DNA of 64,000 nucleotides, from NCBI GenBank assembly GCA_903918195.1, contig CAIXDS010000330.1:1-64000 (forward strand). The letters are read 5' to 3'. Within the stretch, counting starts at the first letter, position 1. Every line of letters starts with the position of its first letter. The notes under the pieces were generated by a model. It had not been told where the DNA came from and did no database searches. It was given only the letters and a program-made list of their open reading frames with translations. Of this stretch, positions 7,137 to 15,684 are shown piece after piece. This DNA comes from an uncultured Acetobacteraceae bacterium. Its GTDB lineage: Bacteria > Pseudomonadota > Alphaproteobacteria > Acetobacterales > Acetobacteraceae. Made by a program: the position numbers and the translations under genes.

Positions 7137-7240
7137 GTAGGCGATGGGCCCAGACCGCTGTTCTACGGCGGCGGCTTGGGCATGTCGGCAGCGGCCGGGT
7201 CCGGGGCGGATCGCACCGCCCTGGCCGCCGCCGGATCGGG

Positions 7241-8557
<1,317 letters not shown>

Positions 8558-10176: not shown

Positions 10177-10752
10177 TCAGGGCGAGACAGTAATAATGCC
10201 CCTCATACCGGCCTCAAAGTGGCCGGGCATATTGCAGTCGTATTCGAAACTTCCGGGCTTGGTGAAACGCCAGGAAAGCACCTTCGCGGCGCCTGGCTGC
10301 ACGGTGATGGCGTTGCCGTCCTGGTGATGGTGGGCCTCGTGCCCCGCCTGCATGGCTTCCGCCATCTCCTTGCGGTGGGCGGATTGTGTGGCGGTGTCCC
10401 CGAGGGTGAAATCGTGGTCGATGCTGCTGGCGTTCGTCACCACGAAGCGCACGGCTTCGCCCGTTTTCACCTCCACATGGGCGGGCGCGAAGCTGGCGTC
10501 ACCCATGGTGATTTCAACCGTGCGGGCAGCCCGGCCGCCAGTGTAGGGCTGGCCGAAGCTATAGACGGTTGCCTGGTCGTGATGTTCGGCCGGCCTGGCC
10601 CCCGAATGCATGCCGCTCATGTCCATGCCCTTCATGTCCATGTCGTCGTTGCCGGCTGCGGCGGCGCAGCTTCCGACGGCAATGAGGGGCAAGGCAAAAA
10701 GCAACGCGAGCGGAAGAAGCGCGTGTCGCAGCGAAAGACGACGAGGGAACAT
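10177..10752 (-). CDS. Secreted cupredoxin (plastocyanin-like copper protein)
   Basis: 191 residues with a signal peptide (about 1-33), a Met-rich segment (DDMDMKGMDMSGMH), then a cupredoxin domain. Type-1 copper ligands are recognisable as the His in SSIDHDF and the Cys, His and Met in the YDCNMPGHFEAGM loop. A His-rich insert (HEAHHHQDG) lies in between. It should be a periplasmic electron carrier or copper chaperone. It faces away from the copper block that starts at 11028, sharing its 275-bp upstream region. Confidence 0.88.
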   Translation of the reverse strand: MFPRRLSLRHALLPLALLFALPLIAVGSCAAAAGNDDMDMKGMDMSGMHSGARPAEHHDQATVYSFGQPYTGGRAARTVEITMGDASFAPAHVEVKTGEAVRFVVTNASSIDHDFTLGDTATQSAHRKEMAEAMQAGHEAHHHQDGNAITVQPGAAKVLSWRFTKPGSFEYDCNMPGHFEAGMRGIITVSP

Positions 10753-11027
10753 GGGTCCGTTTCCTGTCAAACGTCGGCGGCTTGCTTCAGGAAATGAATG
10801 AAACAGTCGGCGGCGCGTTGCATCCGATGAAGGTTCCTGACCGCCGGCGCTATACTGCTCGCCCCGGATGTCTGCAACCGCTCCGAAAGCGCGATCCGAA
10901 CGGAAGCGCCCCATGTCCTTACCGGTCCGCGTGCAATACGCCAACCGATTTGGTACAGCAGCCTGCGCCGCCGGCAGCATTCCGGTGCGCGCCCCTGGCC
11001 CATCCCGAAAACGGAGCCTCACGTCAG

Positions 11028-11939
11028 ATGCTGCGTCTCACGCCTGCCCTCGTGCTGGCCGCCGCCAGCCTGCTCGCCAGCCAGCCGGTGCTTGCGAGCG
11101 TCGTCGCCGGCGTGCGCGTCTTCCCGGTCACCCTCACCTTCGATGACCCCGGCGTCGGCGACGAGCTGAAGATGCCGCACATCATCGTGCAGCCCGAACC
11201 CGGTACGCAGGACGGCTATCAGATGAAATGGGAATGGGACAAGCGGATCACGCCCATGACGTCGATCATCTACGACCAGGGCTACGATTGGCTTCACCCG
11301 TCTGGGTCGAAGACCCGGACCGGCTTCGAGAACGTCTTCGTCACCGGCAAATGGCAGGCCTACACCAACGCCGAACATGAGTTCGCCTTTTCGGTGGGTG
11401 TGATCCGGGAATTCGGCGGCAACACAGCGACCCAGAATATCGGCGGCGACGCCTATGGCTCGACCGCACCGGCCATCTATGCCGGCAAGGGCCTCGGTGA
11501 CCTGCCGATCGGCATGTTGCGCCCGCTCGCCGTGACCGGCCAGCTCAGCTACGCGATCCCCGACCGGCCACTGAACAGCGCACTCGACAACAGCGGCACC
11601 CCCCGATCCTGGAACGGCGGTCTGTCGGTCCAATATAGCATTCCATATCTGCAGTCGCAGGTTCACAATTTTGACCTGCCCGACTTCATCGGAGGGCTGA
11701 TCCCGCTGGTTGAAGCCACCTGGTACTCGCCCGCCAGCAAACCGGCCGGTGGGTTCCCCGCCACGCTGACCATCGCGCCGGGCGTGATCTATTTCGGTGA
11801 TGGCTTCCAGATCGGCCTTGAAGCGCTGATCCCCGCCAATCGGGCATCCGGCCGCAACGTCGGCGCGGCCCTGCAGGTTTTCTTTTTCTTTGACGACATG
11901 TTCCCGGACAATATCATCGGCAAGCCGATCTTTGAGTGA
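11028..11939 (+). CDS. Conserved exported protein, tandem paralogue 1 (possible outer-membrane beta-barrel)
   Basis: 303 residues with a signal peptide (about 1-23). The rest is strand-rich with many alternating aromatic stretches (EFAFSVGVIREFGG, LSVQYSIPYLQSQV, LQVFFFFDD), compatible with an outer-membrane barrel. It shares length and most positions with the product of 12476-13387, including VAGVRVFPVTLTFDDPG, GYDW and ALIPANR. I do not recognise the family. The copper context (cupredoxin, DUF2946-like, CopC, CopD) suggests a role in copper passage or storage, which is inference. The start was chosen so the signal peptide is at residue 1. Confidence 0.7.
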   Translation: MLRLTPALVLAAASLLASQPVLASVVAGVRVFPVTLTFDDPGVGDELKMPHIIVQPEPGTQDGYQMKWEWDKRITPMTSIIYDQGYDWLHPSGSKTRTGFENVFVTGKWQAYTNAEHEFAFSVGVIREFGGNTATQNIGGDAYGSTAPAIYAGKGLGDLPIGMLRPLAVTGQLSYAIPDRPLNSALDNSGTPRSWNGGLSVQYSIPYLQSQVHNFDLPDFIGGLIPLVEATWYSPASKPAGGFPATLTIAPGVIYFGDGFQIGLEALIPANRASGRNVGAALQVFFFFDDMFPDNIIGKPIFE

Positions 11940-12012
11940 GTGCGGGTGAGGCAAGGTTGAGGCAAAACCCCTGGCCTTGCCCTCGCCGCCGGTGTCCTGG
12001 CATTGTTGCGTG

Positions 12013-12402
12013 ATGATGTTGTACGGACTGCGCAGGGTTTCCCGCCGGCTCCTGCACCTGCCAGCCGTGCTGGCAATGGTCGGGCTGCTGGCGGCCGGCG
12101 CGCATGTGCCTGTCGGGGCGCTGGCGCAGGCTGAGCGGGCACAGCTCGCGGCGCTCGGCGTGGTCTGCCTTGCCGGCGGAACGGGCGAGCAGGCTCCCGC
12201 CATCCCCGCCGGGCACCACGCGGGGTTCTGCATTCTCTGCCTGGCCGCTTGCGTAGCGGCGCCACTGCCGGAAGCCGGCCCCGCGCTGCCGCCACCCTCG
12301 GCCGGGCCGGTCCTGCGCGCCGCCGCCCCGCCACCGGCGCGCGCCCCGCCGCCGCTGCCTGCCCGGCCGTTCCAGCCCCGCGGGCCGCCCGTTCCGGTCT
12401 GA
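12013..12402 (+). CDS. DUF2946-like cysteine/histidine membrane protein
   Basis: 129 residues: one N-terminal hydrophobic segment (about 14-38), then HHAGFCILCLAAC, resembling the His/Cys cluster of DUF2946 proteins, and a Pro/Ala-rich tail. DUF2946 genes commonly accompany copper receptors and chaperones. It lies between the two 303-residue paralogues and 71 bp before the second. ATG 12013 is chosen over ATG 12016 and an upstream TTG; the choice is uncertain. Confidence 0.55.
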   Translation: MMLYGLRRVSRRLLHLPAVLAMVGLLAAGAHVPVGALAQAERAQLAALGVVCLAGGTGEQAPAIPAGHHAGFCILCLAACVAAPLPEAGPALPPPSAGPVLRAAAPPPARAPPPLPARPFQPRGPPVPV

Positions 12403-12475
12403 CCAAGGAAACTGCGCCGCCGGCCACATGCCGGCGTGCATCCTTTTGCAGACCCGGATACCGGAGCGACCTCAG

Positions 12476-13387
12476 ATGTCCCGTCTCAAGCTTGCCGCCG
12501 CGCTGGCAGTCGCCAGCGTGCTCGGCAACCACGCCGCCTTCGCCCACGTCATTGCCGGCGTGCGCGTTTTTCCCGTCACCCTCACCTTCGATGACCCCGG
12601 CACTGCCGACGAGGCGACGCTGCCACAAATGGTCTGGCAGCGTGATGCCGGACCTCAGACCACCACTCAACTGCAATGGGAATGGGACAAGACGATCACG
12701 CCCCACACGGCGATCATCTACAACCAGGGCTATGACTGGTTTCATCAATCGGGGTCGAAGACGCAAGGCGGGTTCGAGAACGTCTTCATCACCGGCAAGT
12801 GGCAGGCCTTCACCAACGCCGAACACGAGTTCGTCGTCTCGCTCGGCGTGATCCGGGAATTCGGCGGCAACCAGGCGACCCAGAACATCGGCGGCGATGC
12901 CTATGGCGGAACCTCGCCGACGGCGTATTTCGGCAAGGGCCTCGGCGACCTGCCGGTCGGCGCGTTGCGCCCGCTCGCCGTTACCGGTGAGCTGAGCTAT
13001 AATATTCCTGACCGGCGGCTGAACAGCGCGCTGGACAATAGCGGCAATCCGAACTCCCTGAACGGCGCCCTGTCGATCCAATACAGCATTCCATATCTGG
13101 AGTCGCAGGTGAAGGATCACGGTCTGCCCGACTTCTTCGGACGGCTTGTTCCGCTGGTCGAGTCCACCTGGTTTACGCCCACCGCGGCGCCGGCCGGCGG
13201 GGTCCCCAGCACGTGGACCATCTCGCCCGGTGTGATTTACCTGGGTGATGCATTCCAGGTCGGCATTGAAGCGTTGATCCCGGCCAACAGGCAATCCGGC
13301 CACAATGTCGGCGTGATCGCGCAGGTCCACTTCTTCTTCGACGATCTGTTCCGGGGCAGCTTCCTCGGCAAGCCGATCTTCCAGTAA
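12476..13387 (+). CDS. Conserved exported protein, tandem paralogue 2
   Basis: 303 residues, a close paralogue of the product of 11028-11939 (same length; VIAGVRVFPVTLTFDDPG, IREFGGN, IGGDAYG and FFFDD regions conserved). Signal peptide MSRLKLAAALAVASVLGNHAAFA. It differs mainly in the loop after TFDDPG and in the region around 190-235. It is followed by copC after 41 bp, so the two are probably cotranscribed. Function unknown; outer-membrane location and a copper role are inferred. Confidence 0.7.
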   Translation: MSRLKLAAALAVASVLGNHAAFAHVIAGVRVFPVTLTFDDPGTADEATLPQMVWQRDAGPQTTTQLQWEWDKTITPHTAIIYNQGYDWFHQSGSKTQGGFENVFITGKWQAFTNAEHEFVVSLGVIREFGGNQATQNIGGDAYGGTSPTAYFGKGLGDLPVGALRPLAVTGELSYNIPDRRLNSALDNSGNPNSLNGALSIQYSIPYLESQVKDHGLPDFFGRLVPLVESTWFTPTAAPAGGVPSTWTISPGVIYLGDAFQVGIEALIPANRQSGHNVGVIAQVHFFFDDLFRGSFLGKPIFQ

Positions 13388-13428
13388 GGGTGTTTTCTGC
13401 CATGCCCGTCCGTGAAAGGAGCCCGCTT

Positions 13429-13791
13429 ATGCGCCTGATGACCCTCCTGCTCGCCGTCCTTGCCCTGCTGGCCGGCAGCGACACCGCCTTCGCCCACGCG
13501 CTGTTGCGTCACGCCCAGCCCCCCGTCGGCGCCACCGTGAAAGCCGCGCCGGACGAATTGCTGCTGATCTTTTCCGAATCCGTCGAACCCGGCTTCAGCA
13601 GCGTCGCCGTGACCGACCCGCACGGCGCAAGGGTGGATACCGGCACCATCCGCACCGATCCGAAGGACGCCACCCACCTGCTCGCCGGCCTGAAGACTCT
13701 CGCGCCCGGCACCTACAAGGTGATCTGGCACGCGACCTCGACCGATTCGCACAAGACCGAGGGCGCCTACCAGTTCACCGTCCAGCCCTAG
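13429..13791 (+). CDS. copC: Periplasmic copper-binding protein CopC
   Basis: 120 residues with a signal peptide ending in FAHA, so the mature protein begins with His, which is the copper(II) ligand in CopC. The body HALLRHAQPPVGATVKAAP, LIFSESVEPGFS and the final DSHKTEGAYQFTV (Asp and His ligands) are typical. It has a good Shine-Dalgarno sequence, AAAGGAG (13415-13421), 7 nt before ATG 13429. It would hand periplasmic copper to CopD, encoded 3 bp downstream. Confidence 0.9.
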   Translation: MRLMTLLLAVLALLAGSDTAFAHALLRHAQPPVGATVKAAPDELLLIFSESVEPGFSSVAVTDPHGARVDTGTIRTDPKDATHLLAGLKTLAPGTYKVIWHATSTDSHKTEGAYQFTVQP

Positions 13792-13794
13792 GCC

Positions 13795-15684
13795 ATGCCG
13801 CCTTTCGACCCGGAGGGCGGGCTTGTCCTTGCTCTCCTGCGGGCCGCGTCGGTGGCGGCCCTGTTGTCGGCGTTCGGTACTCTGGTGTTCGGCGTGGTGG
13901 TCGCGCCGCGCGCCTTCGCCGGCGCATCGGCGGAGGTCACGGCGCCGGCCTGGCGCGCGCTGACGCGGCTCTGCCGGCTCAGTCTGGTCGCGGCTTTTGC
14001 GTTCGCCCTGGTGTGGCTGGTGGCGGAATCGGGTCAGATCGCCGGTGCACCGGGGCTGCTCGGCGCATGGACCGCGACGCCAACGGTCGTGTCCGCCACC
14101 TTCTTCGGCCACGTGGTGGCGGTTCGGCTGACCGGGCTGGTCATCGCGCTCGCGGTGCTGGGACGGCACCCGTCCGTGCTGCGATGGCGCGCGACGACCG
14201 TGCTGTGCGGCGGCATCATCTGCCTGCACGCCGCCCACAGCCATGCCATGGCGATGGTCAACGGTCCCAGTGTTCTGCTGGCCTCGCAGGTTGTGCATCT
14301 GCTCGCGGCCGGCGCCTGGCTGGGCGGGCTGCTGCCGTTGCTGCTGGTGGTCCGGCTCACCCCGCCCCGAACCGGCGCCGCGGCATGCCGCTGGTTCTCG
14401 CCGCTCGGCAAATGCTGCGTCGCCGGCATCGTGCTGTCGGCGATCTGGCAGTTTTGCGTCCTGATCGGCGGACCGGTGGGGATGATCGGCACCGCGCATG
14501 GCTGGATGGACGCCGCCAAGACGCTGCTTCTCGTGGTGCTGCTGGGCTTTGCCGCCGCCAACCGATACCGCTTCGCGCCGGCGCTGCGCGGCCCCGACCC
14601 GGTGATCGCCCGGCGCGACCTGCTCCGCAGCCTCGCCCTGCAGACCGCGGCCGGGGCGACCATCGTCGGCGTCGCCGCAGTGCTGGCCAGCCTGCCGCCG
14701 GCGATGCATGTGCAGCCGGTCTGGCCGTTTGCCTGGCGGCCGAGCCTGGTCGCGCTGGAGGACCCCGATCTGCGGCGGGAAATCGGCACCGCCGCGATCG
14801 CTGTGCTGGCGGGGCTCTCACTGGCCGCGAGCGGTATTTTTCTCCGGCGTCTTCGTTTTCTTCGCATCGCCGCCGGGGTCGCGGCCATCGTCTGGGCCGC
14901 GCCGCATTTCGGGCCGCTGCTGGTCGAGGCCTATCCCACCAGCTTCTACCGCTCGCCGAGCGGTTTTTCCGCCCAGTCCATCGCGACCGGAGCCGACCTT
15001 TACCCCACCTATTGCGCGTCCTGCCACGGCGCGCATGGCCAGGGCGATGGGGAGGCCGCGAAGGCACTCGCCGTGCCGCCGGCCGACCTGACGGCGGCGC
15101 ATCTCTGGGACCACAGCGACGGCGAGCTGTTCTGGTGGCTGTCGCACGGCATGGACAATCCGGAGGGCGGCCTGGCCATGCCCGGCTTCGCCGACCGGCT
15201 GAGTGAAGAGGGGCGCTGGGCGCTGATCGACGCGATCCGGGCCAACAACGCCGGGATGTCGCTCGGGCGCGGCCGCAACTGGACGCGCCCGACACCGGCG
15301 CCGCGCTTCGAGGCCGACTGCGCCGACGGACGCAGCCTGGACCTTGCCGATCTGAAGGGGCAGGCAGCGCGCATCGTCGCCGCCGGCGGCACGGAGCCGC
15401 CCGGATTGCCCCTCGCGACCATCGTCATCGGCGCGGATGCCGCCGCTGCCGACAAAAATGCCTGCACGAGCAGCGATCCGGCCGTCCTGGTGGCCTACGC
15501 GCTGGTGGCGGGCGTGTCGCCCGATGCGCTCGCCGGCACACAATTCCTGGTCGATCCGGAGGGGTGGTTGCGTGCGTTGTGGCGGCCCGGCGACCCGCCG
15601 GGCTGGACCTCCCTGCTCCCTGATGTCACCGCCATCTGCCGCGCTCCCCTGGAAGCGCCCGCCAGCGGCCACCACCACCCATGA
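13795..15684 (+). CDS. CopD copper-import protein fused to cytochrome c and a redoxin-like tail
   Basis: 629 residues. Residues 1-300 form a CopD-type membrane domain with about eight helices and His-rich LHAAHSHAMAM. Residues 330-380 add more helices. A class I cytochrome c domain follows, with CASCH at 407-411 and a Met ligand candidate in GGLAMPGF. The last 110 residues (for example GTQFLVDPEGWLRALW) look like a degenerate redoxin or SCO-like fold ending in HHHP. CopD imports copper; the cytochrome suggests redox-coupled handling, which is inference. It is 3 bp after copC. Confidence 0.82.
   Translation: MPPFDPEGGLVLALLRAASVAALLSAFGTLVFGVVVAPRAFAGASAEVTAPAWRALTRLCRLSLVAAFAFALVWLVAESGQIAGAPGLLGAWTATPTVVSATFFGHVVAVRLTGLVIALAVLGRHPSVLRWRATTVLCGGIICLHAAHSHAMAMVNGPSVLLASQVVHLLAAGAWLGGLLPLLLVVRLTPPRTGAAACRWFSPLGKCCVAGIVLSAIWQFCVLIGGPVGMIGTAHGWMDAAKTLLLVVLLGFAAANRYRFAPALRGPDPVIARRDLLRSLALQTAAGATIVGVAAVLASLPPAMHVQPVWPFAWRPSLVALEDPDLRREIGTAAIAVLAGLSLAASGIFLRRLRFLRIAAGVAAIVWAAPHFGPLLVEAYPTSFYRSPSGFSAQSIATGADLYPTYCASCHGAHGQGDGEAAKALAVPPADLTAAHLWDHSDGELFWWLSHGMDNPEGGLAMPGFADRLSEEGRWALIDAIRANNAGMSLGRGRNWTRPTPAPRFEADCADGRSLDLADLKGQAARIVAAGGTEPPGLPLATIVIGADAAAADKNACTSSDPAVLVAYALVAGVSPDALAGTQFLVDPEGWLRALWRPGDPPGWTSLLPDVTAICRAPLEAPASGHHHP

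Follow-up and report, generated by a model that had tools for sequence, protein, structure and literature searches.

The stretch of DNA analyzed here, 64,000 nucleotides (nt) from an uncultured Acetobacteraceae bacterium (GenBank assembly GCA_903918195.1, contig CAIXDS010000330.1, positions 1 to 64,000 of the forward strand; hereafter the window), is part of an 85.6-kb contig in a 6.1-Mb genome and harbors a block of copper genes (Table 1). A preliminary description, made from the sequence alone, had proposed that a Met/His-rich cupredoxin, two paralogues of equal length around a DUF2946-like open reading frame (ORF), CopC, and a CopD fusion form this block, and all of these elements were located, as was the N-terminal motif AGVRVFPVTLTFDDPG common to the two paralogues, which are named FAM1 and FAM2 here (68% identity). 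The claim that they belong to an unrecognized family of 303-residue proteins held in all sequence searches. Pfam gave no match at an E value of ≤1 for either protein and none, including PF13557, PF05275, and DUF1775, in an hmmscan of 15 family members; NCBIfam returned no line for FAM1 and a single chance-level line for FAM2 (E 0.11). The PDB sequence search with FAM2 (FAM1 was not searched alone) was empty at an E value of ≤10, and a profile of 15 members produced only one chance-level line there (E 0.45). No description of the family was found among the papers listed by the literature searches. FAM is a real family that previously had no name, and its leader ORF, the conserved histidine pair of FAM2, the histidine-less FAM1, and a cassette-free sister locus are the new points of this study.

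Table 1. Features of the copper block, with positions in the window (aa, amino acids; pLDDT, predicted local distance difference test; pTM, predicted template modeling score)
Feature	Position	Strand	Remarks
CopI-like Met/His-rich cupredoxin	10180-10752	-	191 aa; divergent from FAM1; PF00127, E 5.6e-10
FAM1	11028-11939	+	303 aa; Ser24 and Phe285 in place of the two histidines
CruR/CutF-type (DUF2946-like) leader ORF, putative	12013-12402	+	129 aa; CILC at residue 73, RGPP at residue 123
CILC motif of the leader	12229-12240	+	motif read in the leader ORF
RGPP arrest-like motif of the leader	12379-12390	+	3 codons ahead of the stop
FAM2	12476-13387	+	303 aa; predicted 12-stranded outer-membrane barrel; AlphaFold2 pLDDT 92.5, pTM 0.85
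His24 codon, predicted first residue of mature FAM2	12545-12547	+	A-x-A before H; His in 78/80
His285 codon, inferred lumen face of the last FAM2 strand	13328-13330	+	His in 78/80; hydrophobic alternation
CopC	13429-13791	+	PF04234, E 1.3e-22
CopD-cytochrome c fusion, probable Sco/thioredoxin-like C-terminal domain	13795-15684	+	629 aa; PF05425 and cytochrome c

A species-collection scan yielded 212 relatives, the best 80 of which were retained as named loci; two of these (L038 and L079) are cut at contig ends and were excluded from alignment A2. The scan patterns required FP[VA]T..DDP and an E.DKTIT-like stretch, so that conservation there is not evidence; neither pattern covers residue 24 or residue 285. 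Among the best 80, the relatives span alpha- and betaproteobacteria (including Acetobacteraceae, Rhodospirillales, Xanthobacter, Methylobacterium, Bradyrhizobium, Beijerinckia, Paraburkholderia, Trinickia, and Ramlibacter) as well as one gammaproteobacterial metagenome-assembled genome (MAG) and MAGs of Verrucomicrobia; mis-binning may account for a few records labelled Terriglobia or Solirubrobacterales. With FAM2 as the query, members were detected in 36 of the 150 genomes that represent the bacterial family and in 6 of 385 of the class sample, and with alignment A2 as the query in 21 of 299 genomes of the order sample and 6 of 398 of the phylum sample, the genome of the window being counted each time. 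Plasmid-borne members were found in seven records, i.e., from Nitrobacter, Methylocystis, Caballeronia (three), Cupriavidus, and Robbsia.

A member was regarded as linked if its strand carried copC no more than 400 nt downstream or copD no more than 2 kb downstream, for which at least 700 nt of downstream sequence were needed. After duplicate removal, the 142 matches of at least 600 nt represented 111 distinct members, comprising 94 linked and 9 unlinked ones, 7 that are too close to a contig end, and FAM1, which was set aside because it would be counted by a copD located 1,856 nt downstream, but its next genes are the leader ORF and FAM2. Linkage was accordingly found for 94 of the 103 judgeable distinct relatives. 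The 80 named loci and the window together contain 82 family matches; 77 of these have the required 700 nt of downstream sequence, and 72 of the 77 are linked (FAM1 among them by copD distance only). In the named set, the gap between family gene and copC ranges from -6 to 210 nt by the ends of the hidden Markov model matches (FAM1's 1,490 nt excluded), so that both genes look cotranscribed. At the genome level, CopC was present in 34 of the 36 genomes that encode FAM versus 68 of the 114 that do not (150 genomes of the bacterial family; Fisher 3e-5, ignoring kinship). In the two genomes with FAM and without CopC (G074 and G094), the FAM gene is cut by a contig end or represented by no more than a 73-residue fragment.

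The plasmid records agree with this picture in their third-party annotation, which reads DUF2946, hypothetical protein, CopC, and CopD in Robbsia, DUF2946, hypothetical protein, and CopC in Caballeronia, and hypothetical protein, CopC, and CopD in Methylocystis and Nitrobacter; the Cupriavidus stretch carries no annotation. Other neighbors were sampled from contiguous same-strand ORFs of 110 to 900 amino acids, at most two per side (n = 93 proteins), and among the 25 of 48 matched families displayed, the commonest were DUF2946 (19, counted at an E value of ≤0.001), PCuAC (9), Sco (5), and CopD (5, including the operon's own copD missed in clustering). The gene neighborhoods across phyla and the plasmid records strongly link the FAM family to copper, and the copper association that had been proposed from the window alone recurs elsewhere, where the neighbors are mostly copper genes and not unrelated ones.

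The second line of evidence is a pair of histidines. In the alignment of 80 sequences, the residue behind an A-x-A-type cleavage site is histidine in 78, and the cleavage-site rule (A, V, G, S, or T at -3; A, S, or G at -1) holds in all 80; His24 is predicted to be the first residue of mature FAM2. Residue 285, histidine in equally many sequences, probably faces the barrel lumen, as do the conserved E46, E229, and E265, judging from the alternation of hydrophobic residues. FAM2 thus displays the sequence signature of a histidine brace, i.e., a histidine that comes first after the predicted cleavage and a second conserved one, and the mature N-terminal and the lumen-facing histidine together suggest a Cu(II) site. 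The pair is kept in 94 of 94 linked members versus 4 of 9 unlinked ones (naive Fisher 1.4e-6). Four of the other five unlinked members read S/F, L/K, L/R, and Y/H at residues 24/285, and the fifth has leucine at 285 with residue 24 unread. Two members at contig ends read H/L and D/N, and both histidines are present in all four plasmid members read. Among the 80, only FAM1 and the protein of locus L021 lack both. That the histidine pair tracks copper linkage is suggestive, not proof. A third candidate ligand, H117 (histidine in 72 of 80), was set aside because eight members with the other two histidines lack it, while FAM1 keeps it.

An AlphaFold2 model of FAM2 built with 80 aligned sequences shows 12 long strands behind a 22-residue segment, with block pLDDT values of 76 for residues 21 to 30, 93 for residues 31 to 40, and 96 for residues 41 to 50. 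Foldseek and VIA group the model with outer-membrane barrels, the best fold match being FapF (5o65; VIA Z 21.5, root mean square deviation [rmsd] 2.7, 228 residues, 8% identity), followed by the COG4313 channel 4rl8 (Z 20.4, rmsd 3.1, 225 residues, 10% identity), whereas NanC and KdgM (Z about 17), autotransporters (about 16), and PcoB (7pge; 12.3) match more weakly. The outer-membrane placement, one of the options considered in the preliminary description, is backed by this confident prediction and by the fold matches, which support a 12-stranded outer-membrane barrel for FAM2. Even-stranded barrels usually have both termini in the periplasm, and the segments assumed to lie on that side (N-terminal segment, turns, and C-terminal tail) have a mean entropy of 1.28 bits versus 2.32 bits in the outer loops; at least 95% identity was found at 21 of 78 versus 2 of 65 positions, part of the N-terminal conservation having been selected by the search pattern.

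Likeness of fold alone shows no membership, e.g., for FapF, which is described as a secretion channel for amyloid subunits (PMC5557850). Common descent with COG4313/PF13557 and with CopB was rejected by hhalign, which assigned probabilities of 0.5% and 0.4% (alignments of 8 PF13557 and 12 CopB sequences). A match to a known non-copper porin group, named beforehand as the result that would speak against a copper role, did not emerge from these profile comparisons. The COG4313 protein Pput2725 (4rl8) nevertheless shares with FAM2 the 12-stranded barrel, a similar size, and a short segment before strand 1, but a histidine behind the likely cleavage site was seen by eye in none of eight PF13557-type proteins.

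The ORF between the paralogues fits its former label, DUF2946-like, only in part, since the Pfam score stayed under the gathering cut-off (E 0.027, 15.7 of 23.7 bits), whereas the spacing of its motifs is CruR-like. CILC is followed by 46 residues, RGPP, 3 residues, and the stop codon; the corresponding values for CruR of Bordetella pertussis are CXXC, 45 residues, RAPP, and 3 residues (PMC9426467). The ORF therefore resembles a CruR/CutF-type copper-sensing leader in its motif layout (CXXC, about 45 residues, R[AG]PP, 3 residues, stop) and in its position ahead of copper genes, but differs in the subthreshold Pfam score and in the weak similarity across its length. A motif scan detected an ORF with such spacing (CX2-3C...[RKAG]xPP) upstream of 42 of 79 family starts versus 10 of 1,152 control positions. 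In 39 of the 42 cases it ends 34 to 152 nt ahead of the family start; the remaining three (FAM1, L043, and L095) are 482 to 577 nt away and may be due to chance. Within 400 nt upstream of FAM1 and of the histidine-less loci L021, L119, L120, and L017, no such leader was found. Copper relieves stalling at CruR and thereby lowers the downstream copper-acquisition genes (PMC9426467), and by analogy leaders of this type would fit uptake. Promoter and terminator scans of positions 10700 to 12500 gave one promoter-like site, TTGACG-16-TATCAT, which ends at position 11917 inside the 3' end of FAM1 and ahead of the leader. In Bradyrhizobium neotropicale (L064), two ORFs of one DUF2946-like cluster (7537-7923 and 10376-10762) are part of the copper locus, one preceding FAM and the other following CopD.

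The CopC of the window combines the CopC domain with an N-terminal histidine and a D-x-H motif, which are the known Cu(II) ligands of this family, and the residues H36, D119, and H121 (ORF numbering) are each kept in 54 of 55 sequences. The CopD fusion scores 59.4 bits against PF05425 (cut-off, 32.1) and remains below the cut-off of the NCBIfam CopD model (126 of 195 bits); H150 and H168 are the only CopD histidines kept in 56 of 56 sequences. Cytochrome b561-like heme binding by CopD was considered, and a literature search on it gave nothing relevant. A c-type heme motif (CXXCH) is located at residue 407 of the fusion and also occurs in 12 other CopD proteins (L025, L034, L036, L037, L039, L040, L041, L043, L044, L062, L071, and L082); all 13 are 589 to 743 amino acids long, and a 14th motif in a CopD of ordinary length is probably due to chance. 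The structural model of the fusion (pLDDT 81, pTM 0.61) matched Sco/thioredoxin-like folds weakly (best E 5e-4), and a domain of this type is probably located behind the cytochrome, at about residues 495 to 616, a range that is not part of the match output. The CopD-cytochrome fusion suggests redox coupling of copper transfer, and together with the Sco/thioredoxin-like matches it makes it conceivable that copper is reduced before or while it is imported.

Exported proteins with a metal-binding N-terminal histidine have been reported before. In Bacillus subtilis, an N-terminal histidine binds Cu(II) both in YcnI and in the CopC domain of YcnJ, the ion is exchanged between the two, and both proteins aid growth under copper limitation (PMC12362106). 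YcnI (DUF1775) is comparable to FAM2 as an exported CopC/CopD partner, but it is an anchored domain, whereas the family studied here lacks a DUF1775 match and is predicted to form a Gram-negative outer-membrane barrel. The signal-strapping metalloproteins (DUF4198, DUF6702, Ang-1, and Ang-2) are likewise exported and bind metal by the mature N-terminal histidine, but have folds other than the FAM barrel; in a word search, the terms outer membrane, barrel, and porin did not occur in the main text on these proteins (PMC12537917).

FAM1 differs from FAM2 at the two positions in question, and a common role of both paralogues is not supported. FAM1 and the protein of locus L021 form a pair with 100/99 support in the tree (79.8% identity) and share the residues Ser/Phe at 24/285. 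L021 is the syntenic position in the chromosome of a sister species, as documented by a flanking regulator and an 895-residue aconitase-like protein with 93% and 92% identity. FAM1 is under constraint yet evolving faster than its flanks. A pseudogene was rejected because the frame is open and the ratio of nonsynonymous to synonymous substitution rates against L021 is 0.285. The CopI-like cupredoxin, whose matches to NCBIfam CopI models are below the cut-offs (126 of 280 bits and 105 of 200 bits), is present at L021 too (7204-7800), so that both species, which belong to one genus, have it divergently paired with a histidine-less FAM1-type gene. Downstream of the single FAM1-type gene of L021, neither another family gene nor copC or copD was found on the same strand within 2.5 kb. 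FAM1 likely acts beside the cupredoxin in another role that does without the brace.

Overall, we consider it an evenly balanced proposition that FAM2 is a barrel whose Cu(II) site resembles a histidine brace and which serves as the outer-membrane member of the CopC-CopD module and passes copper to CopC. The preliminary alternative of a channel or a copper-binding protein would hence be sharpened to a barrel with a Cu(II) site by His24 and His285; the completion of an import route, also suggested there, is plausible, with the resistance-like cluster of Nitrobacter hamburgensis (see below) on the opposite side. Gene linkage, the leader motif, the confident barrel prediction, the conserved histidine pair, and its absence in FAM1 support the proposal, and we infer from them copper binding at a shared site, hand-over to CopC, an inward direction, and reduction by the cytochrome. 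FAM2 would be cleaved in a signal peptidase step that leaves histidine as the first residue, and the N-terminal amino group and the imidazole of His24 together with His285 would bind a single Cu(II) ion where the barrel meets the periplasm. From there, copper would be handed to CopC, itself equipped with an N-terminal histidine, and carried over the inner membrane by CopD, whose fused cytochrome c could reduce it. The upstream CruR/CutF-type leader peptide would sense copper and set expression, FAM1 would be a selected but altered paralogue without the copper site, and FAM2 would do in the outer membrane the job that corresponds to that of YcnI in Bacillus. The complete scenario, i.e., an undescribed barrel family whose N-terminal histidine-brace-type Cu(II) site is the outer-membrane step of leader-switched CopC-CopD import, with FAM1 as a brace-less variant kept by selection, has in our view somewhat less than an even chance of being correct.

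Several observations weigh against this proposal. Four unlinked members keep both histidines, three of them with a copper-type leader. A phylogeny-aware test of histidines and linkage (61 of 111 rows) provided only three independent pairs (p 0.25), of which on average 2.6 point in the expected direction and 0 in the opposite one, and most unlinked members without the histidines are long branches, so that general divergence could explain the loss. The Nitrobacter member, histidine-bearing and linked to copCD, has no leader of the described type within 400 nt. The leader of the window may moreover be of the copper-induced CutF type; CutF of Rhodobacter has the opposite sign to CruR, expression going up with copper (PMC9973294). 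Furthermore, Sco and PCuAC as neighbors suit delivery as much as uptake, the family gene, copC, and copD of the N. hamburgensis plasmid come after genes for an RND permease, for copper-binding proteins, and for DUF411, a resistance-like setting, and FAM2 occupies the position of CopB/PcoB in the classical copABCD/pcoABCD resistance operons, where the gene of this barrel directly precedes copC and copD.

The last two points are shared by the main rival, according to which FAM2 is a functional counterpart of PcoB/CopB that discharges periplasmic copper caught by CopC. PcoB, too, forms a copper-related barrel of 12 strands in the outer membrane (PMC12509749), to which the FAM2 fold can be aligned, as noted above, and CopB (PF05275) occurs in 3 of 28 genomes with FAM versus 30 of 72 without it (100 genomes of the bacterial family; Fisher 0.004, ignoring kinship), as if the two replaced each other. 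PcoB is, however, an efflux and resistance protein, and most of its homologues have a long disordered His/Met-rich N-terminal domain (PMC12509749), whereas only 22 residues separate the predicted cleavage site of FAM2 from strand 1. The lack of profile kinship to CopB also argues against export, as do DUF2946, PCuAC, and Sco as the commonest neighbors, which belong to the delivery side in a sample that covered proteins of up to 900 amino acids, a length that RND permeases exceed. On balance, we regard export and tolerance as unlikely.

A buffering or regulatory role, in which FAM2 exchanges outer-membrane Cu(II) with CopC without conducting it, would follow the precedent of YcnI beside YcnJ. 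An open pore is also doubtful, since the N terminus plugs the barrel of Pput2725 (PMC4493636). A 12-stranded barrel would nevertheless be a costly scaffold for this purpose, and the conserved residues that probably face the lumen (E46, E229, E265, and H285) suggest that the lumen is used; we rate the buffer as rather improbable. Very improbable is a channel for some other ligand, for example chelated copper or a hydrophobic compound, with histidines that merely pin an N-terminal plug, an idea based on the nearness of the fold to 4rl8 and on the implication of its family in hydrophobic-molecule uptake, to which the missing profile kinship to PF13557, the absence of an N-terminal histidine from the eight proteins of that type, and the copper genes next to FAM are opposed.

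To our knowledge, the route of copper over the outer membrane to CopC and CopD is an open question, for which the family provides a concrete gene, two mutable residues, and a natural negative control (FAM1). If the uptake proposal is true, FAM supplies the outer-membrane step that the copper uptake route has so far lacked, and a histidine-brace-like site exists in a fold for which the literature searched describes none.

Among the plasmid-borne members, the one of the methanotroph Methylocystis rosea (L171, 5974-7050) exhibits an early His-rich stretch, GHGGGGHGDGH, which is possibly an extra copper-collecting loop.

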